From the NCBI GenBank assembly GCA_037501455.1, contig CM074860.1:50540501-50604500 (forward strand): a stretch of 64,000 nt of DNA. Direction: 5' to 3'. The notes under the pieces are model-generated. The model was given only the letters and a program-made list of their open reading frames with translations. It had not been told where the DNA came from and did not search any database. This document shows positions 3,872 to 55,721 of this stretch, piece by piece; the stretch's first letter is position 1; the number at the start of each line of letters is the position of its first letter. The position numbers were made by a program, and so were the translations under genes. This stretch comes from Lantana camara. Lineage: Eukaryota > Streptophyta > Magnoliopsida > Lamiales > Verbenaceae.

Positions 3872-3888
3872 CAGTCTATACGAGACTG
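3872..3888 (-). other. Conserved stem-loop CAGTCT-N5-AGACTG (G1)
   Basis: Six-base perfect stem with a 5-nt loop, about 30 bases upstream of the predicted exon 3 acceptor. The same stem with a 5-nt loop is at the same place in every other gypsy LTR of the window. Confidence 0.7.
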
Positions 3889-4280
3889 GTGGGTATAAAA
3901 TCAGGCCTAAATAGCGTATACAACAATATTTAACATTCACATGCAAGTTATAATCCCAAATGAGGTTTTAGAGCATTTCCCAAGTGGGTAAAATAAAGAA
4001 GTCTTCAAAAGGGATTGTAACGTTCATTTTCATTCTTTAGGTCTTTTGTGGCCCGGCGAGTGGGCGTGCATCAACTCCAACCAACACCATGTGTAATTCA
4101 ATAATCATTCATTCATTAAATCGTTCATGCATATCATTCTTTGTGCTCAATCAATCGATTCGATTCAATCGGTCATATACACCTTCTTCATCCGGTTGAT
4201 GGCCGGGTGATCGGCCCGAACCATCCAATCATTGACCAAAAGGGGTTACATGACTCCCCAGATGGCACTCAGCTCCCTTT

Positions 4281-4302
4281 CCCCGCCAATCTCCTGACGA
4301 GG
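4281..4302 (-). other. Conserved GGAG-loop stem (G1)
   Basis: On the minus strand CCTCGTC, loop AGGAGATT, then GGCGGGG; all seven pairs form if G-U is allowed. It is equivalent in position to the GGAGGTT-loop stems of G5 and G6. Confidence 0.6.
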
Positions 4303-5385: not shown

Positions 5386-5623
5386 GGGTCGCGGGCGGGA
5401 CCCAAATTACTCATGAAATGGTCGCGGTCGCGACCTAATAAAATCGGAATTTTCATGCAATTTTGTGAAATTAACGTGAGCAAATGTGTATAGTGGTCAC
5501 GGGCGCGACCTGAAATGCAAAGGATTCAGGTCGCGGGCGCGACCTGAGAGAACTCAACGCGGCAACTATGTGCATGTCGCGGCCGCGACTGGTTTTGCAC
5601 CAATCGCGATCGCGGCCGCGACC
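5386..5623. repeat. CpG-rich palindrome array (type B) in G1 LTR
   Basis: Variants of GTCGCG-NN-CGCGAC: GGTCGCG/CGCGACC (5420-5435), a mutated copy with CG to CA (5495-5510), TCAGGTCGCG/CGCGACCTGA with 10-bp arms (5526-5547), the perfect GTCGCGGCCGCGAC (5576-5589) and a near copy (5608-5623). An imperfect copy starts at 5386. All lie inside predicted intron 1. Confidence 0.8.
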
Positions 5624-9433: not shown

Positions 9434-9561
9434 GAGGGACACGGGGGTGTCCCTCAACTTAACTAAGCTAAGCCACGCCCGTGGCTCAGTCCAGACATGC
9501 CCAGGAAGCATGACACGCCCGTGTCTCACATTTTAGTGCAAATGAGACACGGGGGTGTCTC
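9434..9561. repeat. CAC-N4-GTG palindrome array (type A), G3 3' LTR
   Basis: Four palindromes: GAGGGACAC/GTGTCCCTC around GGGG (9434-9455), AGCCAC/GTGGCT around GCCC (9471-9486), GACAC/GTGTC around GCCC (9512-9525) and GAGACAC/GTGTCTC around GGGG (9544-9561). The arms differ between copies but still pair. They lie inside predicted intron 1. Confidence 0.85.
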
Positions 9562-12500
9562 GGTACAGGCCAAAATTGCATATAAAGTTTTACCGGCAAA
9601 ACTGACCCTAAACAAAATCAGTCCAAAAGCATACCAAATAAACTCCAAATATTATGAAACTTGATATACAACATATTTAGCATGTTAGGAACATATTTCA
9701 TTTAGAACTCAAAGGCTAGATCACGCGTTAAGAGCACCGAAATCATGCAGCAACTCTGGAGCGCCAAAAACGGACATATGAGCTCAATTGGTTCAATCAT
9801 GCCATGATCAAGTACTTAGGAGCTGAAAATGAAGCTGAAACTCTAGGGAATGAACACTAACATGATAAGAAACTAATATAATCCATGTATATGCAAATTG
9901 ACACGAATTGGAGCACATTAGAACCACCAAGTAATCACAAAATGCAACAGCAGCAGTTCGGTTCGCGCATAGCATACAAACAGGCCATCATGCTTCGATT
10001 AGGAGCTGAAAATGAATCTAAAAACTTGCAAGAGCAGGGCTAATATGTAAACCAATTAGTATACAACATCTCCATGCAAATTCACACGAATTGGAAGTCA
10101 TTAACTCAAGCAACAAAGCACAAAACGTCACAGCAATCCCAAAACAGGGGAGCAGTTTTTAAGGTTCAAGAACTCAAGTTTGCAGCCATATTAAAGCATG
10201 AATTCCGGGCAAAACGAAGCACATTCATAGAACAACATGTATACTACATTACCAAGCATTAGCATACGAAATTGGAGGCAAGAATTCATCCATTTGATCT
10301 CAAAAACGTGACAGCAGTTTGGTGGAAATGAGCAGATTTGCAGCAGTTCGGTTTTCAAGTTTCATGGCCAAAAACTCAAGGTTTCAATCATGTTATCCAA
10401 GAGAAAACAACCCTAACACATCTAGCATGAAGTAAGAATCAAGAATGGAAGCAAAGGAGTTCATATAATCAACAAGGAAGCACCAAATCAGCCACAAACT
10501 CAAGCTAAGGCAAGGAAGCAACAAATGACCTCTAACCCTAACTATTCATGCAAGTCTCCATAACCTTATTAAATCTGATGCAAATCATGAATTTCAAGGA
10601 TCAAATGAAGCGTAGAAGAGAGGAGAATACATAAATATACTTACCTTTAAGAGTTCATGGAGTGTGGAAGAGATTGGCTCCAAAAATCACAAGGTCTTGA
10701 AGAGGGCTTTCTTCTTCTCCTCTTCTCTTCTCTCTCGATCTGTTTCAGCACAAATGAGGGGGGGTTTGGCTAGGTTTTCAGCTGATAAGGGAGAGGGAGA
10801 GACTTAACTCAAGTCAAGTTATCAAGGGTTAGGCTTAGGTTGAGTTAAATTGGCCCCACAAGTACATGACTAGTCAAAGAAGGTGGCTTAAGCACAAGCT
10901 GTTCGTTCCGGTCAAAAAACGAGGGTCTAAACGGGCTTAGAAAAATACCAAATCAGGTTCCTTGGCTTCATCTCTTCGTTACGAGTCCAACGCATCTTCC
11001 GGAATTCGAATCCGAATTCCCTAGCTCAGGTTATGGCCTCCGGAACAAGAGGCGCGCTAAAACTAGTTAGGCCCTCATGTCCCTTGTCACATACTTAAGG
11101 TTTAAAACCTCGAAAAACGAACACGAAAACTTAAAACGAGCATGCAAACACATTCATAACTCACGTATATCACGCATATCAAAATTTCACAAAAATCGGA
11201 ATTGAATTCCGGCACATAACAAGCAAATTACGAGCATACGAAACTTAAACGTTTAAAATCAAAGTTCATGAATATAAACAATTAATTTCATATTAATTCA
11301 AATAATCATATAAGCATTAAAATAACATTCAAATACGTAATTAAATAATTTAAAGCACATAAAACCCTCTCGTTACGGCGTACCTGGAAATCCGAACGAT
11401 CGGGATGTTACAAACTCCCCTCCTTCAAAAGGACCTCTCCTCAGGTCCTAAGGAGAATCTTGAACGGCTTCGAAGACAAGCCCAAAATCCACATTTCCGC
11501 TGCGCCACTCTGATCCTATACTTCTTTTTACCCTATCTCCTTAATTGGCGAACCGGACACAAAGTCCTAGTCGTTTGCCCCAACTTCCCAAATAAAGATT
11601 CGGGAGTAGTTGGAGAATTCTCAACCTTGGCACGTAGACATTACTACACAAAGTCCATAACGTCTTTCTTATGCCAGAACATCCGGGTCCCAAAACTCCG
11701 AACAACCTCAACCCTGAGTGGGATAAACTCGTGACCTTGCACTCCTTAAGGCGTAGGCTACCGTTCGTCTACGAGCAACACACAACAAAGGCCTTCCTTT
11801 ATGCCTCGGTTGGAAACAAGGTAGCCTTTTGTACCTTTGGTTAGGCAAGAGCCAATACCGTGGGTAACTCTCTTCAACCGCCTCTTCCCACTCAAAACCG
11901 TGCCTCTTACTCTGAGACAATCCTCGGTTCTTCTACGGGAAATACCAACGGGTTAGCCTTCTATCTAGTACCCGAAGATATCGTTGAGTCCCTGACGGAC
12001 CTCCTAAAAGCATCCGCTAACGCCAACGAAAACAAGGCACCTTCAGACAAGCTGACCAAAAGCAGTTCGACCCTCACAACTCACCAAACACTCACGAACA
12101 CTCCACACCACAAGCTCTCACCACAAGAAAGTACTAACGCAAAAAGGGAAACAAACAAAGCACACAACGAACAAGAGCCAAGTAGGAAAAGAGATACGTA
12201 ACAAGTAAAACTAGGAAATAAAGGAAGCACACTTCAAATAAAAACCAAGAAGAGAAAGAATCACACAATAGGCAAGAACCAAGGGTGAAAGCAATTACGC
12301 ATCAAGCAAAACTGAAAAGGGAAGGAAACACATTACAAGTAAGAGCCACGAAGGGAAAGAAACACTTAACAAGCAAGAACAAGAAGAGGCATAATTACGC
12401 AACAAACATAATGAAGAATCACCTAAAAACAAGGAGTAAGACAATAAGCACATGCGTTTCCCCCCAATGTTATAATATGCGTGAAATGTAATGCCATGAA

Positions 12501-15762: not shown

Positions 15763-15890
15763 GAGGGACACGGGGGTGTCCCTCAACTTAACTAAGCTGA
15801 GCCACGCCCGTGGCTCAGTCCAGACATGCCCAGGAAGCATGACACGCCCGTGTCTCACATTTCAGTGCAAATGAGACACGGGGGTGTCTC
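15763..15890. repeat. Type A palindrome array, G3 5' LTR
   Basis: GAGGGACAC/GTGTCCCTC (15763-15784), CTGAGCCAC/GTGGCTCAG around GCCC (15797-15818, perfect here while the other LTR has one mismatch), GACAC/GTGTC (15841-15854) and GAGACAC/GTGTCTC (15873-15890). Confidence 0.85.
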
Positions 15891-17724
15891 GGTACAGGCC
15901 AAAATTGCATACAAAGTTTTACCGGCAAAACTTACCCTAAACAAAATCAGTCCAAAAGCATACCGAATCAACTCCAAATATTATGAAACTTGATAAACAA
16001 CATATTTATCATGTTATAAACATATTTCATTTAGAACTCAAAGGCTAGATCACGCGTTAAGAGCACCGAAATCATGCAGCAACTCTGGAGCGCCAAAAAC
16101 GGACATATGAGCTCAATTGGTTCAATCATGCCATGATCAAGTACTTAGGAGCTGAAAATGAAGCTGAAACTCTAGGGAATGAACACTAACATGATAAGCA
16201 ACTAATATACTCCATGTATATGCAAATTGACAGGAATTGGAGCACATTAGAACCACCAAGTAATCACAAAATGCAACAGCAGCAGTTCGGTTCGCGCATA
16301 GCATACAAACAGGCCATCATGCTTCGATTAGGAGCTGAAAATGAATCTAAAAACTTGCAAGAGCAGGGCTAACATATAAACCAATTAGTATACAACATCC
16401 CCATGCAAATTCACACGAATTGGAAGTCATTAACTCAAGCAACAAAGCACAAAACGTCACAGCAGTCCCAAAACAGGGGAGCAGTTTTTAAGGTTCAAGA
16501 ACTCAAGTTTGCAGCCATATTAAAGCATGAATTCCGGGAAAAACGAAGCACATTCATAGAACAACATGTATACTACATTACCAAGCATTAGCATACGAAA
16601 TTGGAGGCAAGAATTCATCCATTTGATCTCAAAAACGTGACAGCAGTTTGGTGGAAATGAGCAGATTTGCAGCAGTTCGGTTTTCAAGTTTCATGGCCAA
16701 AAACTGAAGGTTTCAATCATGTTATCCAAGAGAAAACAACCCTAACACATCTAGCATGAAGTAAGAATCAAGAATGGAAGCAAAGGAGTTCATATAATCA
16801 ACAAGGAAGCACCAAATCAGCCACAAACTCAAGCTAAGGCAAGGAAGCAACAAATGACCTCTAACCCTAACTATTCATGCAAGTGTCCATAACCTTATTA
16901 AATCTGATGCAAATCATGAATTTCAAGGATCAAATGAAGCATAGAAGAGAGGAGAATACATAAATATACTTACCTTTAAGAGTTCATGGAGTGTGGAAGA
17001 GATTGGCTCCAAAAATCACAAGGTCTTGAAGAGGGCTTTCTTCTTCTCCTCTTCTCTTCTCTCTCGATCTGTTTCAGCACAAATGAGGGGGGGTTTGGCT
17101 CGGTTTTCAGCTGATAAGGGAGAGGGAGAGACTTAACTCAAGTCAAGTTATCAAGGGTTAGGCTTAGGTTGAGTTAAATTGGCCCCACAAGTACATGACT
17201 AGTCAAAGAAGGTGGCTTAAGCACAAGTTGTTCGTTCCGGTCAAAAAACGAGGGTCTAAACGGGATTAGAAAAATACCAAATCAGGTTCCTTGGCTTCAT
17301 CTCTTCGTTACGAGTCCAACGCATCTTCCGGAATTCGAATCCGAATTCCCTAGCTCAAGTTATGGCCTCCGGAACAAGAGGCGCGCTAAAACTAGTTAGG
17401 CCCTCATGTCCCTCGTCACATACTTAAAACGAACACGAAAACTTAAAACGAGCATGCAAACACATTCATAACTCACGTATATCACGCATATCGAAATTTC
17501 ACAAAAATCGGAATTGAATTCCGGCACATAACAAGCAAATTACAAGCATACGAAACTTAAACGTTTAAAATCAAAGTTCATGAATATAAACAATTAATTT
17601 CATATTAATTCAAATAATCATATAAGCATTAAAATAACATTCAAATACGTAATTAAATAATTTAAAGCACATAAAACCCTCTCGTTATGGCGTACCTGGA
17701 AATCCGAACGATCGGGATGTTACA

Positions 17725-18256: not shown

Positions 18257-20335
18257 TCAGTGATCAGCATAGCTTTTCTGTCTGTCCTGGGCTGCTTTCA
18301 TCCGTTGTCTGATTATTTGGACCTTATCAATTGCCTCTTGCACGGCCTTAGAGGGTTTTTCCTTGTTCTCTCCTCGTTTCACACCCTCTTGCTTAGTCCA
18401 ATTCCATTCTTCCAAATCAAAGAACAACGGTGACCTGCATTTCTGTCCGTAGAGAGCCTCATATGGAGCCATTTCTATTGATGCTTGAAAGCTGTTATTA
18501 TAGGCGAATTCAATCAAAGGCAATTGTTCGTTCCATGAACTCGAAAAGTCCAATGCACATGCTCTCAACATATCCTCCAAATATTTAATTAATCCCTCCG
18601 ATTGGCCGTCTGTCTGAGGATGGAAAGTTGTGCTGAATTGAAGTCTTGTGCCCAGATTCCTTTGTAATTCTTGCCAAAATCTAGAAGTAAACCTCGGATC
18701 CCGATCTGATACAATGCTAACTGGTACTCCATGAAGTCGGACAATTTCATCCACATACTTCTTAGCCAATTTATTCACCTTATCCGACATTCGAATAGCG
18801 AGAAAATGTGCCGATTTCGTCAGTCGATCCACTATTACCCAAATTCCATCTAAACCACCTTTCACTCGGGGAAGACCCGTAACGAAATCCATCGCCACTT
18901 GCTGCCATTTCCATTCTGGAATAGGTAACAGTTGCAGTAGCCCCGATGGCTTCTGATGCTCTGCTTTCACCACTTGGCAAGTCAAACAATGTCTCACGAA
19001 GTTGATTACATCCCGCTTAAGTCCATTCCACCAATAAAATTTCTTTAAGTCCTTATACATCTTATTTCCCCTGGGATGTATCGAATACCCTGGCCGATGA
19101 GCTTCTTCCAAAATCAACCGTCTCAACTCTTCCGGAACCACAACTCTGTTCTTAAACCTAAGAAGTCCGGTGTCATCAAATCCGAACGGACTCTCTGAAT
19201 CATTTCTAGCTTTCTGCACTAATTTCTGAACCTCGGAGTCCACTCTCTGAGCTTCAAATAACCTCTGCTGAAGATCCGGTTGAACGGCAATATTCCGAAT
19301 ACTAGCTCTTAGCTTGAAAGACTCAGATTCATCCATAGTTTCCACTTTAACACTTGACACGCTAGCCTTCCTACTAACCGCATCCGCGACCACGTTGGCC
19401 TTTCCTGGATGGTATCGAATCGTACACGCATAATCCGCCAACATTTCCATCCAACGCCTCTGTCTCTTGTTTAATTCCTTCTGAGAAAACAAATACTGGA
19501 GACTCTTGTGGTCGGAAAAGATCTCAAAAGAAACTCCGTAGAGATAGTGTCTCCACTTTCCCAAAGCGAAGATCACTGCTGCAAGCTCGAGATAGTGAGT
19601 GGGATAATTCTGTTCATGATCTTTCAGTTTTCTCGAGGCATAAGCTATCACCTTACCCTTCTGCATCAAAACACATCCCAACCCTTCTTTCGAGGCGCCC
19701 GTATAAACCATGTATCCTTCCGTGCCCTCGGGAAGTGCTAATACCGGTGCAGTGGTCAATTTTTCCTTTAAGAGTTGGAAAGTAGCTTCACATGCCTTGT
19801 CCCACTCAAATATTGCTTCCTTCTTAGTTAATCGAGTTAAAGGACCGGCTATCTTCGAAAAATCCTTCAGGAACCTTCGGTAATAACCTGCCAATCCCAA
19901 GAAACTTCTAACCTCAGAAGCATTTTTCGGACTCTGCCATTGAATAACCGTCTCGATCTTTGAAGGATCAACTTCCAAACCCTTACTCGAAATAATATGG
20001 CCTAGAAAAGCAACCCGGTCGATCCAAAACTCACACTTACTAAACTTCGCATACAACCGGTGCTCTCTCAATGTCTCCAATACCAAATTGAGATGCCTAA
20101 CATGATCTTCCGGAGTCTTTGAATACATAAGAATGTCATCAATGAAGATTACGATGAATTTATCCAAATAAGGTCGAAGAATCCGATGCATCATATCCAT
20201 AAATGCTGCAGGGGCATTTGTCAAACCAAAAGGCATCACTACGAACTCATAATGCCCATACCGGGTGTTAAATCCTGTCTTTGGTATATCCTCTTTCCGG
20301 ATTTTCAACTGGTAGTAGCCTTGCCTTAAATCCAA
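18257..20335 (-). CDS. G2 pol fragment: RT, RNase H, integrase
   Basis: 692-residue reading frame. The RT part begins in LDLRQGYYQ and contains [12 protein letters not shown] and the catalytic FIDD (near residue 66). RNase H follows, with ELAAV and SDHKSLQY present but the first catalytic Asp replaced: VYTGAS where relatives (including G6) have YTDA. Integrase has an HHCC zinc finger (H..H, CLTC), Asp in MDF, Asp in SDRDPRF and Glu in GQSE, spaced as D-35-E. Flanking stops (TAA at 20357-20359, TGA at 18257-18259) break it from the rest of pol. Expected product is an RT/integrase polyprotein; this copy should be dead. Confidence 0.88.
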
Positions 20336-20356
20336 TTTCGAATAAACCTTTGAACC

Positions 20357-21091
20357 TTACAGCATGTCAAATAAATCCTCAATGTGGGGCAACGGGTACT
20401 TATTCTTGATGGTCATCCGATTAAGCTCCCGGTAATCTATACACATCCTCAACGGCCCATCTTTCTTTTTGACAAAGAGAACCGGAGCACCCCACGGAGA
20501 TGAACTCGGTCGGATATAACCACTCTTAAGTAATTCCTCGAGTTGAATCTTCAGCTCCTTCAACTCTGTCGGAGCCATTCTATAAGGAGTCTTGGAGTAA
20601 GGTTCTGATCCCGGATATAAATCAAAAACAAATTCAATCTCCCGATCCGGTGGTAGAGAACCCAGAATTTTTGGAAATACATCGGGATATTCCTTTACTA
20701 CAGCCGTCTCCTCAAAACTTGATTGATCCTTTGGTTTATTAAGGAGATAGGCAATAAATCCCGTGGCTCCATCCTTTACCAAGTTGCGAGCTTCCATAAA
20801 CGATAAAAGAGACACATTCTTCGACCCAACTTCTCCAACCAACTCTTCACCCAACTTTATCTTCTTCTTAAAATAATCAACTTCGGGCCGGTGCCGATAC
20901 AACCAATCGATCCCGAAGATTACCCCATACTTCTTCATAGGCATAACAATAAAATCTGACGGATAATCTTTCCCCTCTATCAAAACTGAACAACCACTGA
21001 CAATCCGATCTGTCTGCAAACTACCTCCAAGGGGCGAACTCACAAAATAACAGGAATTTGAGAAGTAACAGGTAGGCACAGAGAGGCACAT
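20357..21091 (-). pseudogene. G2 pol fragment: protease C-part and RT N-part
   Basis: 244 residues. It opens in the C-terminal half of the protease ([20 protein letters not shown]), passes the linker EYPDVFP and enters RT with [27 protein letters not shown] and CIDYRELN. It ends at a TAA just before [10 protein letters not shown], where related copies have a sense codon. The start in another frame than 21040-21573 marks a frameshift near 21060-21090. Confidence 0.82.
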
Positions 21092-21573
21092 AGATCAGAA
21101 GATATAAAAGTATGCGTAGCACCCGGATCGAATAATGCATGAATGCTCGTGTTATGAATGCAAACGGTACCTTCCACTACCGCGTTTGGATCAACCACGA
21201 CATTCTGCTCCTCGCTCTCAAGAGCATAAGCTCGTGCCTGAACCATCGGTCTCTGAGCTCCAGCTTGATATCCTGGAATCTTGTCCGGGCATGCAAAAGC
21301 CATATGATCTCCTTTCCCGCAAATTAGACACAACTTTAATCTTTTTCGGCAATTGTTAAAAGAATGAGTTGGCCATCCACAATAGGTACACGGTGGCTGA
21401 TCATTGCGAGATCCTTTAGGAGCCGGTGCAGCCTGAGGTGGTCGTGGAACGGGTGCAATCGGACCTCCGATTCTCGGCTTCTTGAAAGGCCCTTTTTGTG
21501 GGGGAGTTGGTACATTCATCGGCCTCTTTCCCTTGTTAAATCCCCAGCCGGATCCTGACCTTATCCTTGGCAA
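21040..21573 (-). pseudogene. G2 gag C-part and protease N-part
   Basis: 177 residues. A basic proline-rich stretch is followed by two CX2CX4HX4C zinc knuckles (CTYCGWPTHSFNNC and CLICGKGDHMAFAC), then the protease with LFDPGATHTFIS. The canonical active-site triplet is DSG or DTG; here it is DPG, which should abolish activity. Frameshifted against both gag and the next pol piece. Confidence 0.82.
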
Positions 21574-21698
21574 GAAACTGGCCTCCTAGCATTCACCGAA
21601 TCTTAAACCTTTAAGGCTTTTGAAGTAGCCTTCGCCCAAGTGCTCGTATTAACTGCCTCTAGAGCTGTCTGGATATCCAGTTGAAGCCCTTGAACAAA

Positions 21699-22313
21699 CT
21701 ACATAGCCTTATGGAAGTCATCGCCTGCTATATTTGGTGCATAGTGGGATAACCTCTCATACTCTGAAATATATTCGGCCACATATCTCGACCCTTGCTG
21801 CAATTCGGTAAATTCTCTAAGCCTTCGAGTCCGGGATGAGGGAGGGATGAATTTATTCTTGAATTCCCTTGTAAATACTTCCCAGTTGATCTCTTCTGCA
21901 GTTGCTTCCAATACAATCCGTGTGCTTTCCCACCAAGAGTGGGCTTCCCCTTGTATTAAAGTGATGGTGCATCGAGCCTTCTCTTGGGCCTCACATGGAA
22001 TGAGTTCCCATATCCTCTCTACCTCTTTCAACCACAAATCCGCTTGTATATCATTTCCCTTGAAGAACTTGGGAGGTCTTTGATTCTGAAACTCCCTAAG
22101 TATAACAGAAAGCGGTACCTCGGGCGGTACAACAGGTGGAGGTGGTGCTGGAGGTGCCGGTGGTACATAATCTCGTAGCCCTTGATCTATAATATTGATA
22201 ACTGAATTAACAAAGGCCTCTGCCAGCGTTGGTTGTGGAGGTGGAGGTGTAGGAGTACTATCACGATGATGACGTCGTCCTGGAGATCTCTCTCGATGTC
22301 TACGTGGAGGCAT
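21699..22313 (-). CDS. G2 gag, N-terminal part
   Basis: 204 residues from MPPRRHRERSP, the same start as G6 (MPPRRHRERSPGHRR). Arginine-rich N-terminus, proline-rich linker (residues about 22-70), then the retrotransposon gag domain with WLKEVERIWE, GEAHSWWEST and FTREFKNKFIP. It ends in a TAG after DDFHKAM; the gag sense continues (FVQGLQL) past the stop. It would form the virus-like particle coat. The start lies about 195 bp past the primer site, as in G6. Confidence 0.82.
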   Translation of the reverse strand: MPPRRHRERSPGRRHHRDSTPTPPPPQPTLAEAFVNSVINIIDQGLRDYVPPAPPAPPPPVVPPEVPLSVILREFQNQRPPKFFKGNDIQADLWLKEVERIWELIPCEAQEKARCTITLIQGEAHSWWESTRIVLEATAEEINWEVFTREFKNKFIPPSSRTRRLREFTELQQGSRYVAEYISEYERLSHYAPNIAGDDFHKAM

Positions 22314-22507
22314 CCTGTCAATAAAACACTGAAAATGCGTGTTATTTTTAGTCTATGCATGTTAATGCAAATAATTCAATCAAAATTCAAAATTTAAATC
22401 AATTAAGCACAAAAGAGATGTATATGAAACACATTGTCAAGTAGTCCCTAAGCCGAACGACCTAGACTGACTCACACGACACTAGAGCGCGGGTTTTGCA
22501 ACCCTAA
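22314..22507 (-). mobile_element. G2 leader between primer site and gag
   Basis: Short untranslated leader. Near the primer site it contains GGGTT/AACCC within AGCTTAGGGTTGCAAAACCC, the conserved post-primer hairpin. Confidence 0.75.
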
Positions 22508-23965: not shown

Positions 23966-24180
23966 GGTGACACACCCGTGTCACCTCTACACACTAAGCC
24001 GTGACACCCCCGTGTCACAGTACAGCGGACAACAAACCAGGAAATAGAAGGTGACACGCCCGTGTCACCACTACAAAGCAAACCGTGACACCCCCGTGTC
24101 ACGGTACAGAACAAAAAACCCAACTAACATGCACCCCCGTGTCACGCCGAGCAAGGAAAAAGTGACACGCCAGTGTCACT
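23966..24180. repeat. Type A palindrome array in G2 LTR
   Basis: GGTGACAC/GTGTCACC around ACCC (23966-23985), GTGACAC/GTGTCAC around CCCC (24001-24018), GGTGACAC/GTGTCACC around GCCC (24050-24069), CCGTGACAC/GTGTCACGG around CCCC (24083-24104), a decayed copy near 24131-24146 and AGTGACAC/GTGTCACT around GCCA (24161-24180). Outer pairs change on both sides together. Confidence 0.85.
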
Positions 24181-28861: not shown

Positions 28862-30322
28862 GTCGGTTTCACCATAAATTTGGTTGGAACTAGTGTATGG
28901 GATCACCGTCGGCCCTTGCCTCCCCGGATAGTCACATACACTAAGTCCGTGGGCCCGTGTTCATTTCATATCATACACTCGCCAAAATCATAGGTAGGAT
29001 TACATAAAAGGAGGATTATACATTGGAAACCATTTACTCTTGAAAAGACTCGATATATTTATATATATACAGTATTTTGGCTCAAAACTTTTCACATAAG
29101 GGATAGATCGGGTCGTAATAAGTAATAGAAGAGAAACCCACCTGTTACATCTTACCGAACCAAAATCAAGAAGAAAGGAAGACTTGGGAGTAACCTATGA
29201 ACCCGGCATCTCCACCCTGGAGAACTGAACAAAGAACAATACAGTGTACTTGTGAGATTCAAGACTTCCAAATGAACCATATAGGACACACGACAATGCT
29301 TTAGCATGATATGAGATGTATGCACGATAATAACATGTTATGAAGATGTTCATGGGCACAATTAATGCATCAGAAGTATATAAACAAGCAATTCATTCAA
29401 GCTCAATTGATACATGAAGGTTTGAAGTTCATTCATTCCATATCTTTCATGAATCATATCAAATCTAGCCATAAGCTTTATACATTAATCATAACTCGTA
29501 TTATAACATGTTTACAATGCATGCGAGTCATAGATGAAGCGAGAAGTAATCATATGAGGCCAATAAACCGAGGAACAATTCATATATGCAAGCTAGAGAG
29601 CATTTACCACTCATCACATCCCCGTTAAACTTGCCCGAAGGATCATAATTCACGAAATGTTTAACAAAATCACATTATGATTTCATAATAAACAAGTTAA
29701 CACATAATATAGAATATTAACAAAATATATAAGTCTTGGAAGAATCTATACACAACATACAAAACAATTTAAACCAAGCAAACCATTCATGTATGTATAA
29801 AAGTAGCACATAAACGTTCACGTTGTCATTTCACGTTTATACATTGCATTCATAGCATAAAATTCATAATCATATCAAGATATATACATATAATCAATTA
29901 ATCAAGAATAAAATTCATTCAAACCACATATGGAGTCCGAGAAAGTGGAGGGAAAGCAAGAAAACGGATTGAGCAAGCTTTTGGCGAGAGCTGACAATTT
30001 CCGGGAATGTACGAGCAGTAAAGAATTGAACATATCTTGAGTTCTAGAAGTTGGAATGGATTTTTGTTTGTTGGGAATGAAACTAGACACATAGGCCTTT
30101 CGAATGATATACGGCCCGAATCATGGTTCAAAGCGATGTGGAAATGGCGAACGTCCGAAGTTGGGTGAGTGCAGTGTTCTGGTAAGATGGCGACACCAAA
30201 AATAATTGCTTATATCTCATAAACGAGAAAAGATATTTAAGTGACTCTAATTGGAGATTATTCTACATTTCAAAAGGTTTCAGTGGTCCAAAATTTAGGT
30301 AAATCGGAGTCCATATAAGGGT

Positions 30323-30445
30323 GTCGCGGCCATGACAGAATTATACTAAAAAGCAGTCGCGGCCGCAATGGAAAAATAGCCAAGTTTCGACTTGTTGGTC
30401 GCAGCCACGACAAAAAATGGCTTAACAATGGTCGTGGGTGCGACC
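30323..30445. repeat. Decayed type B palindrome array in G4 LTR
   Basis: Four copies of the GTCGCGGCCGCGAC pattern at 30323-30336, 30356-30369, 30398-30411 and 30430-30445. Most departures from the perfect palindrome are CG to CA or TG changes, as expected from deamination of methylated CpG. Confidence 0.7.
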
Positions 30446-30931
30446 CTGGTACCCAGGCGACAAAAATGGCATCGGGAAAATAGGGAAGTGGCGGAAAAAG
30501 ACTTCAAGAATGCCAACGGAGCTCCCAATTCACCCAAAATCACATAACAACAACCAAATACAACGTATATACACATATCACTCATCAATTCATGAATTCA
30601 TCCATCAAATTATATAAATCCCTATTTATATATATACATATATATACACATATACCTTGGAATAGAGAGGAGAAGAGAAGAAGGAAGATGGTAGGCTTGA
30701 AGTTTGAACTTGAGGGAGAAGAATGGAGCTTGGAATCTTGGCTCCTTGCTTCATGGTTGGATCGAATTGGAGAGGGAGAGAATGGAGGGTTTTTTCTTAC
30801 TCTTGTGTGAGAAAAAATGAAGAAGAAAATAAGGTATTTATGTATATACATACATATAGTGCAACAAGGAAGGAAAGGGGAGAACAATTACCAACAAATC
30901 CCTCAACAATTTAAGTGTTCCATTAAGGTCC

Positions 30932-32491
30932 AGAGATTTAATAGGTGATAGACAAATCTTGAACCCAAGTGTAAGTTCTAATTCGATTGCAACACTTAAG
31001 GTATCGTATCCACAGGGAAGGGAATTCAACAACCACTTTTATGATTATTTCTAATCTAGAGACCGGAAAAGATTGATCAGGTTATATTATACTACTATGA
31101 CAAAATTAAACTTAACTAATAATAAATCAATCACACAAGCTAACAAATAAATACGAGAATTAACCACTTAATTAAAACAGGTCGGGGGATAAATCATATG
31201 CTCTTTTATGATCAAATCAATACTTAAGTACGGATGTATGATTCTTCAACCTAATCACGATGTTATATCTAGCTTCTTTCGAAGGCTAGATGTCTAATTA
31301 ATTAAGCCAAGTGTTGTCCTCACAATCACTTAGTAACCAAATTAATCGAATAAAGCAAGATTAGTGTATTTAAAACCTAGCGGCTTGGCATGGAATTCTA
31401 AATACGGGTTGTAGAAATTAGGGTTAAATTTCTTTAAGCCCAAAAGATCTAAGTTTCAGAAAACGCTCTCAATTATCCTCAATCTCTCGATTATCGGATA
31501 ATTTACAACATGTTCATGGATGGCCAATCCATTCCCAGCTTATTCAATACCGTTTTCCTAACAAAGAATCACACAAATTTACTCAAGCATTAATTCAAAC
31601 ACTTTAGATGCATAATCCTTACCCCCTAACCCTAGGAGATTAGTTCCTCATAATTGGATCAAAACTCATTAAGATCAAAGGAATTGTATTCAAAATAATC
31701 ATGTCTAACATAAACATCAAAACGGGATTAATAATTCTGAATTCTAACCTAGTTATCCAAAAACGAATCTAAAACAAGAAATTAACTAAACTAGAATTGA
31801 AAACCAAAACTTGAGGAATTAGTTTGATCGGAAAGCAGTAAATAAAACCAAATTGACAAAGTCTTGTGATTGGAATGAATCTTCAACTCTCAATCTTCGT
31901 GTTCCTTCGTTCTTCAAGTGTTCTTGAACTTCTGGGGAAAGACTCGTCCAAAAGCTCCCTTAATCCGCCTAAAAACCGTGTATATATAGGGGTTCGAATC
32001 CTAAACTGGCCCGTGACACGGGCGTGCAAGGGTTCTGCTTTAAAATGTGACACGCCCGTGTCACATAATAAAATCGTATCTGCGCTTTCTTCTTGACACG
32101 GGGGTGTCAAAACTTGTTCTTCTCGATGACACGGGGGTGTTAAGTCTCCAGGCTTCTCTGTACCTAGTCACGGGCGTGCAACAATTTACTCTTCATAGGT
32201 GACACGGGCGTGACACCTCCTGAAATCCGAGGGCTTTCTCTGTACTGAGACACGGGCGTGTCTCAGTTTGCTCATCCATGGGGACACGGGCGTGTCCCCT
32301 AAAAATCTCTGGTTTTTCGCCCTTTATTGCATGGTTTTGCTTTTATCCGTCTTTTCAACTCCAAGGTAAAAGGTACCTAATAAGGAGCATAAACCACGTT
32401 ATAAGTTCTTAAAACTGCTTGAATTTAACTAATTTTGCCCTACAAATCCATGCAATAAACTGATACATCAATAGGCGAACAATTAAGGTCC
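30932..32491. mobile_element. 1.56-kb non-LTR insertion with 10-bp duplication
   Basis: ATTAAGGTCC occurs at 30922-30931 and 32482-32491, and joining the flanks restores a smooth G4 LTR. No terminal inverted repeats, poly(A) or long reading frame are visible. Near the left end are AGGTGATAGACAAATC and GTATCGTATCCACAGGG. A 9-11-bp duplication fits Mutator-like elements, including those lacking terminal repeats, but classification is open. The right half carries a type A palindrome array (32013-32299). Confidence 0.65.
32046..32299. repeat. Type A palindrome array inside the non-LTR insertion
   Basis: TGTGACAC/GTGTCACA around GCCC (32046-32065), TTGACAC/GTGTCAA around GGGG (32093-32110), a decayed copy (32127-32140), CTGAGACAC/GTGTCTCAG around GGGC (32245-32266) and GGGGACAC/GTGTCCCC around GGGC (32280-32299). 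Half copies lie near 32013 and 32168. The same core is seen in LTRs of G2, G3 and G6, although this host element is unrelated to them. Confidence 0.82.
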
Positions 32492-34035: not shown

Positions 34036-34083
34036 GGTCGCGGCCGCGACCATTTCTAAGGCTTTTAGGGTCGCGGCCGCGAC
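34036..34083. repeat. Type B palindromes in G5 LTR
   Basis: Perfect GGTCGCGGCCGCGACC (34036-34051) and GTCGCGGCCGCGAC (34070-34083); a partial copy begins near 34160. Each contains a NotI-type GCGGCCGC core. Inside predicted intron 1. Confidence 0.85.
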
Positions 34084-44115: not shown

Positions 44116-44275
44116 TGTAACGCCCCGACTTTTCGGACGTAAAGGTAGGACGTATGTGTTTACCTAGTTGCGCGAATTAATTGTTTTTAAGTGTTTTATA
44201 TTTAATTTTATTATAATTGTTATTATTTTATTATACTATATTATATTATTTTATTTTAATATTATTAATTTTATA

Positions 44276-44288
44276 TATATATGTTTCG

Positions 44289-44324
<36 letters not shown>
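44276..44324. repeat. AT microsatellite, G6 5' LTR
   Basis: TATATA-type repeats; copied at about 51925-51973 in the 3' LTR. Confidence 0.85.
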
Positions 44325-44327
<3 letters not shown>

Positions 44328-45048
44328 TAATTATATTATTATTAATTTAATGATTATGCTAATTATATGTTATGTTAATTAATCATGTTTTAATTAATTA
44401 CTTAATTGTATATATATTATATATATATATACGTGGAAAAACATAATTATGCATGAGAAATCATATTTATGCATGGGAATATAATTTTGCATGAATTTTA
44501 TATTTTTGCATGGGATTAAAATATTCATGCATGGAGTTTATGAATTGTGCATGGGAATTTTATAATTTATGCATGAATTGTATGATTGAGTTTGTTCGTT
44601 TATTTTGTGCTTCGTTCTCTTATGAAATGATATCGAATTGCCACGAATTTGTAATATGTTGTACATATATGTGTTATGGACATGATTTTATGCTTAAATT
44701 ATGTTTTTGAATTCATTTGTTATGTTAACGAATTAAATTTTAATTGAGGAACCAAAACGGGAGCTAACGAGCACTTAGCGTACCCTTGGTTCCGAATTTA
44801 ATATCTTGAGCTCGGGAACTCGGATTCGAGTTCCGTCAACTCCGCTGAACTCGTAACAAAAATTCGAGTTTAGTAAACTTAGCCTTATAATTTTCCCAAT
44901 TCATTTGAAACTCCGAAATCCAACCGAAAAACGAAACGGAGACCAACTTGACCTTGTTGCACTAATTCAGCCATAACTTGGCCAAACCACAACCAAATTA
45001 ACCATGGTTTGATTCCTTTTAACCCTAACTCAACCATCTATCAGTACA

Positions 45049-45055
45049 TATAAAG
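45049..45055 (+). promoter_or_regulatory. TATA box of G6 5' LTR
   Basis: TATAAAG, about 140 bp before the first splice-donor-like site, followed about 30 bp on by a CA-rich start-like region. The 3' LTR copy (52698-52704) reads TATCAAG, so only the 5' copy has an intact box. Confidence 0.6.
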
Positions 45056-45828
45056 CCCTAACCGAGATAACCCTCACACAACTCCCAAACATCAGCCAAA
45101 GCTACTGCTCTACAGTCTAGTCCCGAAACCCTTCATCCCTTGGAGATTTTGGAGCTCAAATCTCCTCCAAACTTCAACCAATCATCAAGGTAAGTTAAGG
45201 GTTGTATTGTATGTTTAATTCTGATCATTTTCATCTTTCCATTCATGAAGTTGAGCATGGTTTCCTCATTTCTGGGCGTTTTTCCGAAAAAAGGAGATTT
45301 TGGGCAAAATGTTGATCTTCTTTGATTCTCAATGATTTTGATAGATTCCAAGCCTGAGATTAATTGTTTTAACATCCTTATATCAATTATGATCATTGCT
45401 TTCGTGTTTGTTGAGATATATATGAGATATCATTTATGAAATTTTCAGAAATTCCACATGAAGGTCACGTATGCTTCCATGCTTTGATTGATCACTTTTG
45501 GAACTGATTTACTTGTTGAATACATGATATTTTGCTGCTTATTTGTTGGCCTTAACTGAGTAAATAGATGGAGAAGGATTGAATTGTTCTTGCCCTGTTC
45601 TTCCCGCAACGGTGCCCTGTTTTTTCACGCTGTGAGGTTGCTGTAAAACTGCTGTCACTCCTTCATGCTTTTGCTGTCATTTCCTTGTTTTGGTGGGGGG
45701 TAGTTTAGATGAGTTTCTTGCAGCTTTTCCTGCTCAATTTTGCTACCTTTCTTGCCTGAAATTCTTGCATGGAGTTGCTGCTTTTCTGCGCCATTTTGCT
45801 GTCCGAAACAGGGGAGGGGCTGCTGTGA

Positions 45829-45954
45829 GACACGGGGGTGTCAGCTCTCGCCTTTCCAGCGCGGAACGGGGGTGCAGACCTGGCCTGGGATTTCTGTACC
45901 GAGACACGGGGGTGTCTCGGTCTAGGTTTGAAGGGTGACACGGGGGTGTCACCC
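45829..45954. repeat. Type A palindrome array, G6 5' LTR
   Basis: GACAC/GTGTC around GGGG (45829-45842), a decayed copy near 45862-45876, ACCGAGACAC/GTGTCTCGGT with 10-bp arms (45898-45921) and GGGTGACAC/GTGTCACCC (45933-45954), all around GGGG. Confidence 0.85.
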
Positions 45955-47187
45955 CGTTTTCTGGATTTTCTTGCTGCGTTTCTGGGACTGCTACTGCTGC
46001 TGCTGCTGTTGTTATTCCTTGCATGCTTGGTTGTGTGATTATATATATATATGCATGGCTGTGTGTGAGTGAGATTGCATGCATGGTTAGTATATAGTGT
46101 ATAGTATATATATATATATGCTTGATGTGCAGTGTGTGTGTGTTGCATGCATGGGAGTGGTGTGGTGTGTCCATGGGTTTCATTTCATTTGCATGCATGA
46201 CTTTTAGTTTACTTTACATGCATGATTTTGTGTTGTTATTTGCATGCCTGAGTTCGTGCATGTGTGTGTTTATATATATTATAGTATAATGCATGCATGC
46301 ATGTGTAATGTATATAATTGTATTAAATGTATTATATGTATAAGTATGTATTGTATTATATTGTATATATTTTAATATTCTGAGCGTATATATATATATA
46401 CATTATATACACATATGATATTATATAATTATTATAAATTTATTATATTATATATGTTTATTATATATTATATATTTTAAATATTATTTGATTTAATTCA
46501 ATTCTTGAAATTAATTGATTTCAATTTCGCGTATTTATTCTACTGACCATTGTTTGAACGTTTTATTTATTTTATTCCTAAATGAGAATTTGAATAATAT
46601 GTGTTATGCTTCTTAAATGAATTTTAGATTAATTGATATGCATTATGAATGTTATGAATTTATGAAATTATGAAATTGAATGAAATATATGAACGAATGA
46701 TTGGATTATATGCTTTAAATTCTTTAATCGTGCACATGAACATTTTAATGATATAACATGATCATTTATGCATTCATGTCATATGCACTTCATTGTCGAG
46801 CGTCATATGTGGTCATTGAGTCTCATACCTTTTCTTTTGCACAGATTCGGGTTTGGTCGGAGACGAGGGCGAGCATTGAGACGCTTGTGCCTCTATTTTG
46901 CTTTGGTAAAGGTGGGTTTTTCTTCTACTAGTTAAACAACCCTATAAATCCCTTATGTGCAAAGTTTTAAGCCAAAATAATATATTTATATCAATCGAGT
47001 CATGTTGGGTAAATGATTTCAAATGTATGCCCCTTTTTAATTGTGAAACCCTACCTTATGTTTGGCGAGACACATTTATATATATGCTTATTCGGGCCCC
47101 GGGACTTGGTATATGTGGCTAACCGAGGAAGCAAGGGCTGACGGGGATCCCATATACTAGTTCCAACCAAACTACGGTGATACCGGC

Positions 47188-47210
47188 CCTCGCTAGGAGG
47201 TTTAGCGAGG
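47188..47210 (+). other. Conserved GGAGGTT-loop stem (G6 5' LTR)
   Basis: CCTCGCTA, loop GGAGGTT, TAGCGAGG: a perfect 8-bp stem. Confidence 0.7.
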
Positions 47211-47604
47211 AATGGGAGCTGAGTGCCCTTGGGGGATTCATGTACCCCCATTGGCCTATGTATGAACCGGTGGTCGGGTCTAGCTAACTTGTCCACCACC
47301 CGGAGAAAGAAGGTGTATATGTATGATTATGATCATTTATGTATGTGCACGAAAGATATGTTTGACAACCACTAATTATGATATGACTACACGAGGAGAA
47401 GGTTGGAGATTGTGCACGCTCACTCGCCGAGCTTAACCCTTATGAACAATTATGAATGAATATGAACGTCGTAATCCCGTTGATGTTTTCTATTGTTTTA
47501 ACCACTTGGTAAATTCCTTTCAAACTTCACACGGGATTAGGGCTTGCATGTATGTGTTTAATTTCTGCGATATTATATATCTTATGCCCCGTTTTTATAC
47601 CCAT

Positions 47605-47621
47605 CAGTCTCTTTTAGACTG
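47605..47621 (+). other. Conserved stem-loop CAGTCT-N5-AGACTG (G6 5' LTR)
   Basis: Perfect 6-bp stem, loop CTTTT, 30 bases before the exon 3 acceptor; ACTGAAC on its 3' side could serve as a branch site. Confidence 0.7.
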
Positions 47622-48080
47622 AACCCGGTTGTTTTCAGTTGTTTTGTGCAGGTATAGGAGTGCTAGGCGGGAATATAAGTCGTCTAGGTCTTGCATTTAC
47701 GTTTAGCACTTCTTTTCCGTCTCATATTCGTACTCTTGTTACTAATTTTGTATTTGATCATAGTTTAGATTGGAGCGTTATGATTTTGTAGGCCGTGAGT
47801 GTCGTGGCATATTAGAATGTCTTTGTATATCTGTTTTTTTTTGGAGCTTGTTAGCTCATTGTATATATGCTAGGTTATTCTTGCTTCCGCGAATTTTATT
47901 AACTCTGATTTTATGTTTCTTGAGTTGAATGGTTTAAGGGTTAGTCCCGCCTAGCCTAGCGTGTGTGTTGTGTCCCCGTTCGCCGTGGATTTGGCACGTG
48001 TATGGATTTCCATTTCATATACGGGTTGGGTCTCGGTGCGGGGGATGTGGTACCTTACGCTCGGGTGCTACATCCTTAAG

Positions 48081-51764: not shown

Positions 51765-51937
51765 TGTAACGCCCCGACTTTTCGGACGTAAAGGTAGGAC
51801 GTATGTGTTTACCTAGTTGCGCGAATTAATTGTTTTTAAGTGTTTTATATTTAATTTTATTATAATTGTTATTATTTTATTATACTATATTATATTATTT
51901 TATTTTAATATTATTAATTTTATATATATATGTTTCG

Positions 51938-51976
<39 letters not shown>

Positions 51977-53477
51977 TAATTATATTATTATTAATTTAAT
52001 GATTATGCTAATTATATGTTATGTTAAATAATCATGTTTTAATTAATTACTTAATTGTATATATATTATATATATATATACGTGGAAAAACATAATTATG
52101 CATGAGAAATCATATTTATGCATGGGAATATAATTTTGCATGAATTTTATATTTTTGCATGGGATTAAAATATTCATGCATGGAGTTTATGAATTGTGCA
52201 TGGGAATTTTATAATTTATGCATGAATTGTATGATTGAGTTTGTTCGTTTATTTTGTGCTTCGTTCTCTTATGAAATGATATCGAATTGCCACGAATTTG
52301 TAATATGTTGTACATATATGTGTTATGGACATGATTTTATGCTTAAATTATGTTTTTGAATTCATTTGTTATGTTAACGAATTAAATTTTAATTGAGGAA
52401 CCAAAACGGGAGCTAACGAGCACTTAGCGTACCCTTGGTTCCGAATTTAATATCTTGAGCTCGGGAACTCGGATTCGAGTTCCGTCAACTCCGCTGAACT
52501 TGTAACGAAAATTCGAGTGTAGTAAACTTAGCCTTATAATTTTCCCAATTCATTTGAAACTCCGAAATCCAACCGAAAAACGAAACGGAGACCAACTTGA
52601 CCTTGTTGCACTAATTCAGCCATAACTTGGCCAAACCACAACCAAATTAACCATGGTTTGATTCCTTTTAACCCTAACTCAACCATCTATCAGTACATAT
52701 CAAGCCCTAACCGAGATAACCCTCACACAACTCCCAAACATCAGCCAAAGCTACTGCTCTACAGTCCAGTCCCGAAACCCTTCATCCCTTGGAGATTTTG
52801 GAGCTCAAATCTCCTCCAAACTTCAACCAATCATCAAGGTAAGTTAAGGGCTGTATTTTATGTTTAATTCTGATCATTTTCATCTTTCCATTCATGAAGT
52901 TGAGCATGGTTTCCTCATTTCTGGGCGTTTTTCCGAAAAAAGGAGATTTTGGGCAAAATGTTGATCTTCTTTGATTCTCAATGATTTTGATAGATTCCAA
53001 GCCTGAGATTAACTGTTTTAACATCCTCATATCAATTATGATCATTTCTTTCGTGTTTGTTGAGATATATATGAGATATCATTTATGAAATTTTCAGAAA
53101 TTCCACATGAAGGTCACGTATGCTTCCATGCTTTGATTGATCACTTTTGGAACTGATTTACTTGTTGAATACATGATATTTTGCTGCTTATTTGTTGGCC
53201 TTAACTGAGTAAATAGATGGAGAAGGATTGAATTGTTCTTGCCCTGTTCTTCCCGCAACGGTGCCCTGTTTTTTCACGCTGTGAGGTTGCTGTAAAACTG
53301 CTGTCACTCCTTCATGCTTTTGCTGTCATTTCCTTGTTTTGGTGGGGGGTAGTTTAGATGAGTTTCTTGCAGCTTTTCCTGCTCAATTTTGCTACCTTTC
53401 TTGCCTGAAATTCTTGCATGGAGTTGCTGCTTTTCTGCGCCATTTTGTTGTCCGAAACAGGGGAGGGGCTGCTGTGA

Positions 53478-53603
53478 GACACGGGGGTGTCAGCTCTCGC
53501 CTTTCCAGCACGGAACGGGGGTGCAGACCTGGCCTGGGATTTCTGTACCGAGACACGGGGGTGTCTCGGTCTAGGTTTGAAGGGTGACACGGGGGTGTCA
53601 CCC
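53478..53603. repeat. Type A palindrome array, G6 3' LTR
   Basis: ACCGAGACAC/GTGTCTCGGT at 53547-53570 and GGGTGACAC/GTGTCACCC at 53582-53603, plus the two weaker copies. Confidence 0.85.
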
Positions 53604-54836
53604 CGTTTTCTGGATTTTCTTGCTGCGTTTCTGGGACTGCTACTGCTGCTGCTGCTGTTGTTATTCCTTGCATGCTTGGTTGTGTGATTATATATATATA
53701 TGCATGGCTGTGTGTGAGTGAGATTGCATGCATGGTTTGTATATAGTGTATAGTATATATATATATATGCTTGATGTGCAGTGTGTGTGTGTTGCATGCA
53801 TGGGAGTGGTGTGGTGTGTGCATGGGTTTCATTTCATTTGCATGCATGACTTTTAGTTTACTTTACATGCATGATTTTGTGTTGTTATTTGCATGCCTGA
53901 GTTCGTGCATGTGTGTGTTTATATATATTATAGTATAATGCATGCATGCATGTGTAATGTATATAATTGTATTAAATGTATTATATGTATAAGTATGTAT
54001 TGTATTATATTGTATATATTTTAATATTCTGAGCGTATATATATATATACATTATATACACATATGATATTATATAATTATTATAAATTTATTATATTAT
54101 ATATGTTTATTATATATTATATATTTTAAATATTATTTGATTTAATTCAATTCTTGAAATTAATTGATTTCAATTTCGCGTATTTATTCTACTGACCATT
54201 GTTTGAACATTTTATTTATTTTATTCCTAAATGAGAATTTGAATAATATGTGTTATGCTTCTTAAATGAATTTTAGATTAATTGATATGCATTATGAATG
54301 TTATGAATTTATGAAATTATGAAATTGAATGAAATATATGAACGAATGATTGGATTATATGCTTTAAATTCTTTAATCGTGCACATGAACATTTTAATGA
54401 TATAACATGATCATTTATGCATTCATGTCATATGCACTTCATTGCCGAGCGTCATATGTGGTCATTGAGTCTCATACCTTTTCTTTTGCACAGATTCGGG
54501 TTTGGTCGGAGACGAGGGCGAGCATTGAGACGCTTGTGCCTCTATTTTGCTTTGGTAAAGGTGGGTTTTTCTTCTACTAGTTAAACAACCCTATAAATCC
54601 CTTATGTGCAAAGTTTTAAGCCAAAATAATATATTTATATCAATCGAGTCATGTTGGGTAAATGATTTCAAATGTATGCCCCTTTTTAATTGTGAAACCC
54701 TACCTTATGTTTGGCGAGACACATTTATATATATGCTTATTCGGGCCCCGGGACTTGGTATATGTGGCTAACCGAGGAAGCAAGGGCTGACGGGGATCCC
54801 ATATACTAGTTCCAACCAAACTACGGTGATACCGGC

Positions 54837-54859
54837 CCTCGCTAGGAGGTTTAGCGAGG
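54837..54859 (+). other. Conserved GGAGGTT-loop stem (G6 3' LTR)
   Basis: Identical to 47188-47210. Confidence 0.7.
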
Positions 54860-55253
54860 AATGGGAGCTGAGTGCCCTTGGGGGATTCATGTACCCCCAT
54901 TGGCCTATGTATGAACCGGTGGTCAGGTCTAGCTAACTTGTCCACCACCCGGAGGAAGAAGGTGTATATGTATGATTATGATCATTTATGTATGTGCACG
55001 AAAGATATGTATGACAACCACTAATTATGATATGACTACACGAGGAGAAGGTTGGAGATTGTGCACGCTCACTCGCCGAGCTTAACCCTTATGAACAATT
55101 ATGAATGAATATGAACCTCGTAATCCCGTTGATGTTTTCTATTGTTTTAACCACTTGGTAAATTCCTTTCAAACTTCACACGGGATTAGGGCTTGCATGT
55201 ATGTGTTTAATTTCTGCGATATTATATATCTTATGCCCCGTTTTTATACCCAC

Positions 55254-55270
55254 CAGTCTCTTTTAGACTG
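55254..55270 (+). other. Conserved stem-loop CAGTCT-N5-AGACTG (G6 3' LTR)
   Basis: Identical to 47605-47621. Confidence 0.7.
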
Positions 55271-55721
55271 AACCCGGTTGTTTTCAGTTGTTTTGTGCAG
55301 GTATAGGAGTGCTAGGCGGGAATACAAGTCGTCTAGGTCTTGCATTTACGTTTAGCACTTCTTTTTCGTCTCATATTCATACTCTTGTTACTACTTTTGT
55401 ATTTCATCATAGTTTAGATTGGAGCGTTATGATTTTGTAGGCCGTGAGTGCCGTGGCATATTAGAATGTTTTTGTATATCTATTTTTTTTTGGAGCTTGT
55501 TAGCTCATTGTATATATGCTAGGTTATTCTTGCTTCCGCGAATTTTATTAACTCTGATTTTATGTTTCTTGAGTTGATTGGTTTAAGGGTTAGTCCCGTC
55601 TAGCCTAACGTGTGTGTTGTGTCCCCGTTCGCCGTGGATTTGGCACGTGTATGGATTTCCATTTCATATACGGGTTGGGTCTCGGTGCGGGGGATGTGGT
55701 ACCTTACGCTCGGGTGCTACA

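Follow-up and report, generated by a model that had tools for sequence, protein, structure and literature searches.

Why should several long terminal repeats (LTRs) of one plant genome each carry a cluster of short palindromes whose arms differ from unit to unit while still matching each other, and would such clusters act as folded RNA, as double-stranded DNA, or not at all? A preliminary description had placed these clusters at one fixed position in every long gypsy LTR, and had considered selection, hairpin-templated correction or repeated insertion of small palindromic units as their cause. The window, i.e., the whole stretch of 64,000 nucleotides analysed here (C6:50540501-50604500, in a searched genome of 1,271,175,918 bases), holds nested LTR retrotransposons of plant type. 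A minus-strand element at 18257-22352 shows Pfam domain matches to gag, protease, RT, RNase H and integrase in gypsy order, the integrase core match lying below the Pfam cut-off and the H2C2 match above it. In the ORF of a second element, element A, protease is the sole domain match, and its internal DNA is 78% identical to element 18257-22352 over 2.4 kb (self-BLAST). Element A and its relatives are presumably chromoviruses of the Tekay/Del kind. The host features needed below are as follows.

44116 to 48072, plus strand: 5' LTR of gypsy element A, chromovirus-like, 99.2% identical to the 3' copy at 51765-55721 (self-BLAST)
45049 to 45054, plus strand: TATAAA box of LTR A (read directly)
45190 to 46844, plus strand: predicted leader intron of LTR A, AAG/GTAAGT ... 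TTTTGCACAG/A (read directly from the sequence)
30946 to 32470, minus strand: solo LTR, Athila-type by its relatives, with TG...CA ends, 1525 bp long, CCTAT on each side
31981 to 31988, minus strand: TATATATA box of the solo LTR

Two types of unit are distinguished by their cores, GACAC-N4-GTGTC in type A and GTCGC-N4-GCGAC in type B. The preliminary description was right that palindrome clusters with the arm variants it listed recur in long gypsy LTRs, as they are found in both LTRs of element A, in LTR X, in two copies of LTR Y and in the solo LTR. Array A (45829-45954) consists of two perfect palindromes, one partial unit and one degenerate unit, and the chromovirus-like LTRs of the window hold only 2-6 units each. 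The arrays and their parts are the following.

45829 to 45842, plus strand: unit 1 of array A, GACACGGGGGTGTC, partial, its outer arms unpaired
45865 to 45874, plus strand: unit 2 of array A, degenerate, 34 bp past unit 1
45894 to 45899, plus strand: CTGTAC flank in the intact module of array A
45898 to 45921, plus strand: palindrome 1 of the intact module, ACCGAGACAC-GGGG-GTGTCTCGGT, 10-bp arms, N4
45933 to 45954, plus strand: palindrome 2 of the intact module, GGGTGACAC-GGGG-GTGTCACCC, 9-bp arms, N4, 34 bp past palindrome 1
53478 to 53603, plus strand: counterpart of array A in the 3' LTR of element A
23966 to 24180, minus strand: array of LTR X, three modules with six units, the second unit broken
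9434 to 9561, minus strand: array of LTR Y, two modules
15763 to 15890, minus strand: array in the other LTR Y copy
32009 to 32299, minus strand: array of the solo LTR, eight cores in antisense modules, cores 38-306 bp upstream of the TATA box
34036 to 34083, plus strand: type B pair (GGTCGCGGCCGCGACC) in LTR Z, 33-bp step
about 5388 to 5626, minus strand: type B array in the LTR at about 3515-6700
30300 to 30480, minus strand: decayed type B units in another long LTR (read directly)

The type A units are arranged in pairs. This pairing went beyond the preliminary description, as did the flanking CTGTAC and the difference in orientation between lineages described below. Read in the orientation of the module, CTGTAC is followed by palindrome 1, about 12 bases and palindrome 2, each palindrome having up to about 9 bp on either side of N4 and the two centres lying 34 bp apart. 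Modules inside one array are alike. The pattern CTGTAC-N5-CAC-N4-GTG-N22..26-CAC-N4-GTG occurs genome-wide at 19,256 places (9,529 + 9,727) and its reversed control at none; by reading, all but one of the roughly 100 module matches listed have the 34-bp step. When steps of 32-36 were allowed in the sampled loci and the window, 184 of 190 modules had a step of 34, two of 33 and four of 32. Exact pairs of GACAC-N4-GTGTC number 22,509 genome-wide, and those of GTCGC-N4-GCGAC, mostly 33 apart among the matches listed, number 2,700; both reversed-pattern controls gave 0, and a chance origin of the palindromes was ruled out on these controls. For comparison, GACGC/GCGTC, likewise a GC-rich palindrome pair, occurs at 0 places genome-wide, against the 22,509 of the GACAC type. 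The centre is not a single sequence, since Y-type modules have CCCC in palindrome 1. Separately, relatives were sought in viral contigs, where 16 stretches with a pair, each of 2-3 units, were read as chance.

The arrays do not occupy one fixed place, contrary to the preliminary description, and instead take three kinds of position in two gypsy lineages. In the chromovirus-like LTRs examined they lie in a predicted leader intron, downstream of the TATA box or of the splice donor. In Athila-type elements they lie just upstream of the TATA box, as in the solo LTR, where the eight cores, two or more of which are degenerate, have their starts at LTR positions 177-445, ahead of a TATA box that starts at 483, and also internally, 5' of the ATHILA ORF. 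The internal case is locus L047, whose array lies about 7 kb from a related LTR in L051 and between an integrase-like ORF (PF00665, 4e-4, a weak match below the cut-off) and an ATHILA ORF (PF03078 ATHILA ORF-1, 2.5e-10, above the cut-off), both on the minus strand. LTRs related to the solo LTR are paired about 11-12 kb apart, one pair 7.6 kb. Modules are sense in A, X, Y and L043, whereas those of the examined Athila-type copies (the solo LTR, L051 and the internal array of L047) are antisense; the BLAST matches between the two groups of arrays are inverted except for one of 24 bases between the solo LTR and X. The GGGG centre, present in A, X, L043, L051 and L047, has its orientation fixed to the module and not to the transcript. 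Moreover, X, A, L043 and L051 share a second unit whose right arm reads GTGCA instead of GTGTC. Outside the array, BLAST matches L051 to A in two short segments of 75 and 36 columns, beside a TA repeat of LTR A, and to the L043 locus in two of 575 and 53 columns.

Such related arrays, in opposite orientation in two lineages and with little homology beyond the array, would also be expected if the module were a small mobile or recombinationally transferred double-palindrome unit that spreads without use to the retrotransposons. The LTRs L133 and L134 are consistent with this, as they resemble the window's X array up to the second module and the window at 30160 from there on; mosaic LTRs with their junction at the array suggest recombination there. 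We nevertheless hold a useless mobile module to be improbable, since an unsystematic look at the loci inspected revealed no precise single-module insertion or target duplication and the conserved stems and centres described next suggest a function, while transfer together with function is equally compatible with a cis-regulatory role of the dyads. As to the proposal of repeated insertion of small palindromic units, single-unit insertion was not seen at the loci inspected, where whole arrays appear to have moved or been inherited.

With many copies in the genome, constraint acting while the lineage replicates can be told apart from decay that follows insertion. Family copies came from the 40 highest-scoring among 2653, 3393 and 1768 first-look candidates for the three families, and those used from outside the window were 26 of 38 (A), 39 of 39 (X, L077 included) and 20 of 39 (Athila-type), with L133, L134 and L078 drawn from other listings. 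Rows were left out in all three families: L130, L133 and L134 of 42 in X, leaving 39; L017 and L022, at places identical to window copies, of 30 in A, leaving 28; and W and L078 of 22 in the Athila-type family. Pre-insertion sites of family X were those with variants common to at least 3 copies, whereas in the Athila-type U3 family only 8 complete LTR pairs told changes before and after insertion apart; in family A the differences between the two LTRs of one element were too few for use. With positions labelled as paired by the column majority of the very rows counted, variant sites in family X were 2/88 paired, 1/24 centre, 28/101 spacer and 49/147 flank; in family A 2/48, 2/12, 19/70 and 220/370; and in the Athila-type U3 family 4/110, 1/32, 39/148 and 32/148, respectively. 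Paired positions thus vary at about 1/6 to 1/12 of the spacer rate (p = 5e-7 in X, 0.001 in A and 4e-7 in the Athila-type U3 family). Because the copies are best matches to array-holding queries, a comparison of array with flank is biased, while that of stem with spacer is not. Earlier labelling by fixed 22-base units pointed the same way, with 6/90 vs 22/85 in X (p = 7e-4), 0/36 vs 9/42 in A (p = 0.003) and 11/108 vs 27/114 in the Athila-type family (p = 0.01). In this last family, variability in the arms of the two degenerate units (5/36) did not clearly exceed that of intact units (p = 0.55).

A low mutation rate does not explain the contrast in family X, because rare alleles per site are alike at paired positions and spacers (0.42 and 0.38; centre 0.71, flank 0.49). 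Family A does not show this difference between lineage-shared and rare variants, since there rare variants are also scarce in stems, with 1 in 48 paired sites, 0 in the centre, 7 in 70 spacer sites and 106 in the flank; the post-insertion differences of the Athila-type U3 family (paired 3, centre 0, spacer 2, flank 3) are too few to judge. The 4-base centre avoids lineage-shared variants in X and the Athila-type U3 family, and the 2/12 of family A is not clear. Conserved stems and centres suggest a function, in support of the earlier proposal of maintenance by selection. They also bear on the idea that one ancestral palindrome was duplicated in tandem, as in a minisatellite, and then drifted. 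The likeness of modules within an array fits such a history, to which we give hardly any probability, as paired positions are far less variable than spacers in all three families, the 34-bp step is rigid and the arm changes are matched.

The preliminary description had also stated that the arms vary in pairs, so that palindromicity and not sequence is kept. Some outer pairs do covary, but the core is conserved as sequence and so is the centre in two of the three families. Matched changes give T-A, A-T or G-C in the third outer pair and A-T or C-G in the first, and the GTCGC class belongs to them as well; in an alignment of homologous units of X and L051, the third pair is T-A vs A-T twice and T-A vs G-C once. 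The 426 units with a CAC-N4-GTG core were thinned to 52 clusters, which include four G-box units (window 2054-2102) and four L081 units that are not clearly type A. With relatedness among units left in place by the shuffle tests, pairing in these clusters exceeded shuffles at outer pair 1 (40/52, reached by 8 of 2000 shuffles), pair 3 (33/52, 0 of 2000), pair 4 (28/52, 4 of 2000) and pair 5 (25/52, 2 of 2000), and no excess was found at pairs 2, 6 or 7-12. Among 29 thinned modules, pairs 1 and 3 stood out in palindrome 1 (6 and 11 of 5000 shuffles) and pairs 3 and 5 in palindrome 2 (0 and 16 of 5000), with no excess at pair 5 of palindrome 1 (reached by 1703 of 5000), at pairs 2, 4 and 6 of both palindromes or at pair 1 of palindrome 2. 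Pooling pairs in 25 step-34 modules gave z 4.1 for palindrome 1 (pairs 1-6) and 4.8 for palindrome 2 (pairs 1-5), with 0/1000 shuffles, and z of at most 2.24 when partners were slid by -3 to +3. Covariation of the arms is statistically supported by these shuffles, at a small number of outer pairs.

Type B units extend these observations. Among 120 distinct units, 40 have core changes, with 55 one-sided changes, many of them probably later decay, against 4 paired double changes, all from C-G to A-T. Covariation is seen at pair 6 (93/120 vs 79.0 expected by shuffles, 0/3000) and pair 3 (108/120 vs 101.3, 3/3000). Some C-G/T-A exchanges sit in a CpG context and could be two independent deaminations; exchanges between T-A and A-T and between A-T and C-G are not of the deamination kind, so the paired change is real, limited to few outer pairs in a stem that is mostly kept as sequence.

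Paired changes at several positions are what hairpin-templated correction, or template switching in reverse transcription, would produce by equalising the arms without selection. This mechanism, one of those first proposed, appears very improbable, because the broken second unit was inherited unrepaired in both lineages (X, A, L043 and L051), the one-sided changes of type B outnumber the paired ones by 55 to 4, decay included, and the centres, which no arm can template, are conserved in two families.

The arm covariation, which is statistically significant, also speaks for a role in RNA, in which the transcript would fold into a row of hairpins that serve packaging, dimerisation or splicing control of the genomic RNA, or that are tolerated as sources of small RNAs; an array in the leader intron would be carried by unspliced RNA only. 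Maize Sirevirus LTR palindromes were reportedly described as small-RNA hot spots by Bousios in 2016. Covariation and leader-intron placement make an RNA role conceivable, as do the lack of a pairing excess beyond the sixth outer pair, a fifth outer pair of LTR X in which T.G, a wobble in sense, became T-A (in CpG context), and stable predicted folds, although any palindrome gives values such as those of the two arrays folded (z -2.88 and -3.78 relative to shuffles). We regard it as rather unlikely. Compensatory changes affect few pairs only; in two of the three families the loop is conserved like the stem, where a structured RNA would constrain the stem more (family A, at 2/12, is not clear). 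Athila-type elements carry the array inverted with respect to the transcript, and in their U3 it stands upstream of the TATA box. One-sided type B changes are wobbles in 19 cases and A-C in 17, i.e., equal, and this strand asymmetry was set aside as a test for RNA, given too few lineage-fixed cases. Finally, the third outer pair is T..A in 22,319 of the 45,018 unit slots (2 x 22,509) genome-wide, as against T..T in 6,804, and A..A in 982.

Many of the T..T places among the matches listed belong to one high-copy family (L045 and L136), in which palindrome 1 has T.T and palindrome 2 has A.A. No other single fact speaks as strongly against the idea that every palindrome must be perfect as this family, which also counts against RNA hairpins. 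As a separate observation, the two palindromes are reverse complements of each other at 17/18 positions, so that the whole module could fold as one long inverted repeat, yet each palindrome is imperfect.

The reading that we favour, at roughly even chances, is that the arrays act as double-stranded DNA, as orientation-independent, enhancer-like cis-regulatory elements. CTGTAC and two dyad sites (up to 9 bp - N4 - 9 bp) with centres 34 bp apart would form a binding-site array in which a dimeric sequence-specific protein, encoded by the host or by the element, may read the GACAC half-sites, and the two dyads at their fixed spacing would be bound together, which would raise transcription or counter silencing. 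The conserved core, the centre conserved in two families, the orientation independence, the placement near the TATA box or an internal ORF and the rigid spacing fit a DNA-binding dimer better than a hairpin. As each arm change must match in both half-sites, the limited matched changes might represent specificity classes of related homodimers. Several points weigh against the regulatory dyads. Firstly, outer-arm covariation is unexpected from one dimeric factor with independently degenerate positions, so that several related factors or a structural role would be needed. Secondly, chromovirus-like arrays lie downstream of the TATA box or splice donor, in a predicted intron. Thirdly, palindrome 1 of Y-type modules has the CCCC centre, and family A shows neither a clearly conserved centre (2/12) nor abundant rare alleles in stems. 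A further possibility, which we put forward tentatively, is that the module crossed as an array between deeply diverged Ty3/gypsy lineages and came to lie in opposite orientation; a dedicated factor would read it and would also select for matched changes in the arms. Retrotransposons of different lineages would then share a transferable control cassette, its placement convergent with that of Sireviruses. If the module is shared by transfer, the control regions of retrotransposons evolve partly via cassette exchange, and the factor that reads it becomes a concrete target, with some 19,000 copies of its presumed site in one genome. Auxin-response and G-box binding sites were dropped as an identity for the units, as their half-site orientation and the N4 spacing do not fit.

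Comparable systems are known. In fungal mitochondria, double-hairpin elements have two short GC-rich hairpins per unit and paired arm changes, as here; these elements are mobile themselves, whereas no single-module insertion was seen at the loci inspected here. The BI and BII boxes of Tnt1, a copia element, are repeated, partly symmetric regulatory boxes of the LTR and resemble our arrays in this respect; Tnt1 is not known to have a fixed double-dyad module. PMC2829016 describes Tnt1 box I as symmetric. The same source reports palindromic repeated motifs (RM) in the LTRs of Sireviruses (Ty1/copia) as high-copy dyads clustered upstream of the TATA box, with more copies 5' of the ENV gene, in which a symmetric core, CGG-CCG, is kept while symmetric flanking bases differ among elements. 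To that extent the likeness is close, since the dyads here are high-copy, the Athila-type arrays lie either ahead of the TATA box or 5' of the ATHILA ORF, and the core is kept while matched flanking arm bases vary. The solo LTR, with eight cores and further units internal to Athila-type elements, has the palindromes in at least 8 copies per element that define an RM, and they cluster upstream of its TATA box, whereas the array of LTR A lies downstream; the L047 array, between the integrase-like ORF and the ATHILA ORF, is a candidate counterpart of the second RM cluster, which lies 5' of an envelope-like gene. The differences are that the hosts are Ty3/gypsy elements (gypsy order at 18257-22352; PF03078 in L047), that the cores are GACAC-N4-GTGTC or GTCGC-N4-GCGAC, that type A sites are paired 34 bp apart with CTGTAC, and that chromovirus-like LTRs hold their arrays in a predicted leader intron and in the other orientation. 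The RM were called Sirevirus-specific and absent from the classic retrotransposons compared there (PMC2829016); palindromic LTR control arrays would thus be extended to Ty3/gypsy elements. Two further sources (PMC10760457, PMC5311732) present the LTR palindromes of maize Sireviruses as small-RNA hot spots, likewise clustered in a cis-region of the LTR with predicted secondary structure. No description of such arrays in Ty3/gypsy elements was found in the literature searched, subscription papers being mostly outside its reach, and among the matches listed for papers quoting the core strings none concerned plant retrotransposons by title.

Other palindromes occur in the window. A minus-strand LTR with its primer site at 1299-1311 has a G-box-like cluster of palindromes at 2055-2126 (CACACGTGTG, TGTGACACGTGTCACA, CCACACGTGTGATTTCACACGTGTGG), with a TATA box (CTCTATAAATAGGGG) about 345 bp downstream; here, too, the palindromes precede TATA, but their core differs. 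At 835-978, GC-rich palindromes with the core CCCGC-N6-GCGGG lie about 320-460 bp inside the same primer site, and their outer arms differ yet match (CTGTCCCGC/GCGGGACAG and CCTCCCGC/GCGGGAGG). A single palindrome, GGAACTCG-N4-CGAGTTCC, is present in several LTRs (window 44815-44834, 11001-11020, 17330-17349 and 6420-6439; L045 at about 225-247), with variants carrying matched changes (GGAATTCG/CGAATTCC and GAAACTCG/CGAGTTTC); the copy in LTR A ends some 215 bp ahead of the TATA box.
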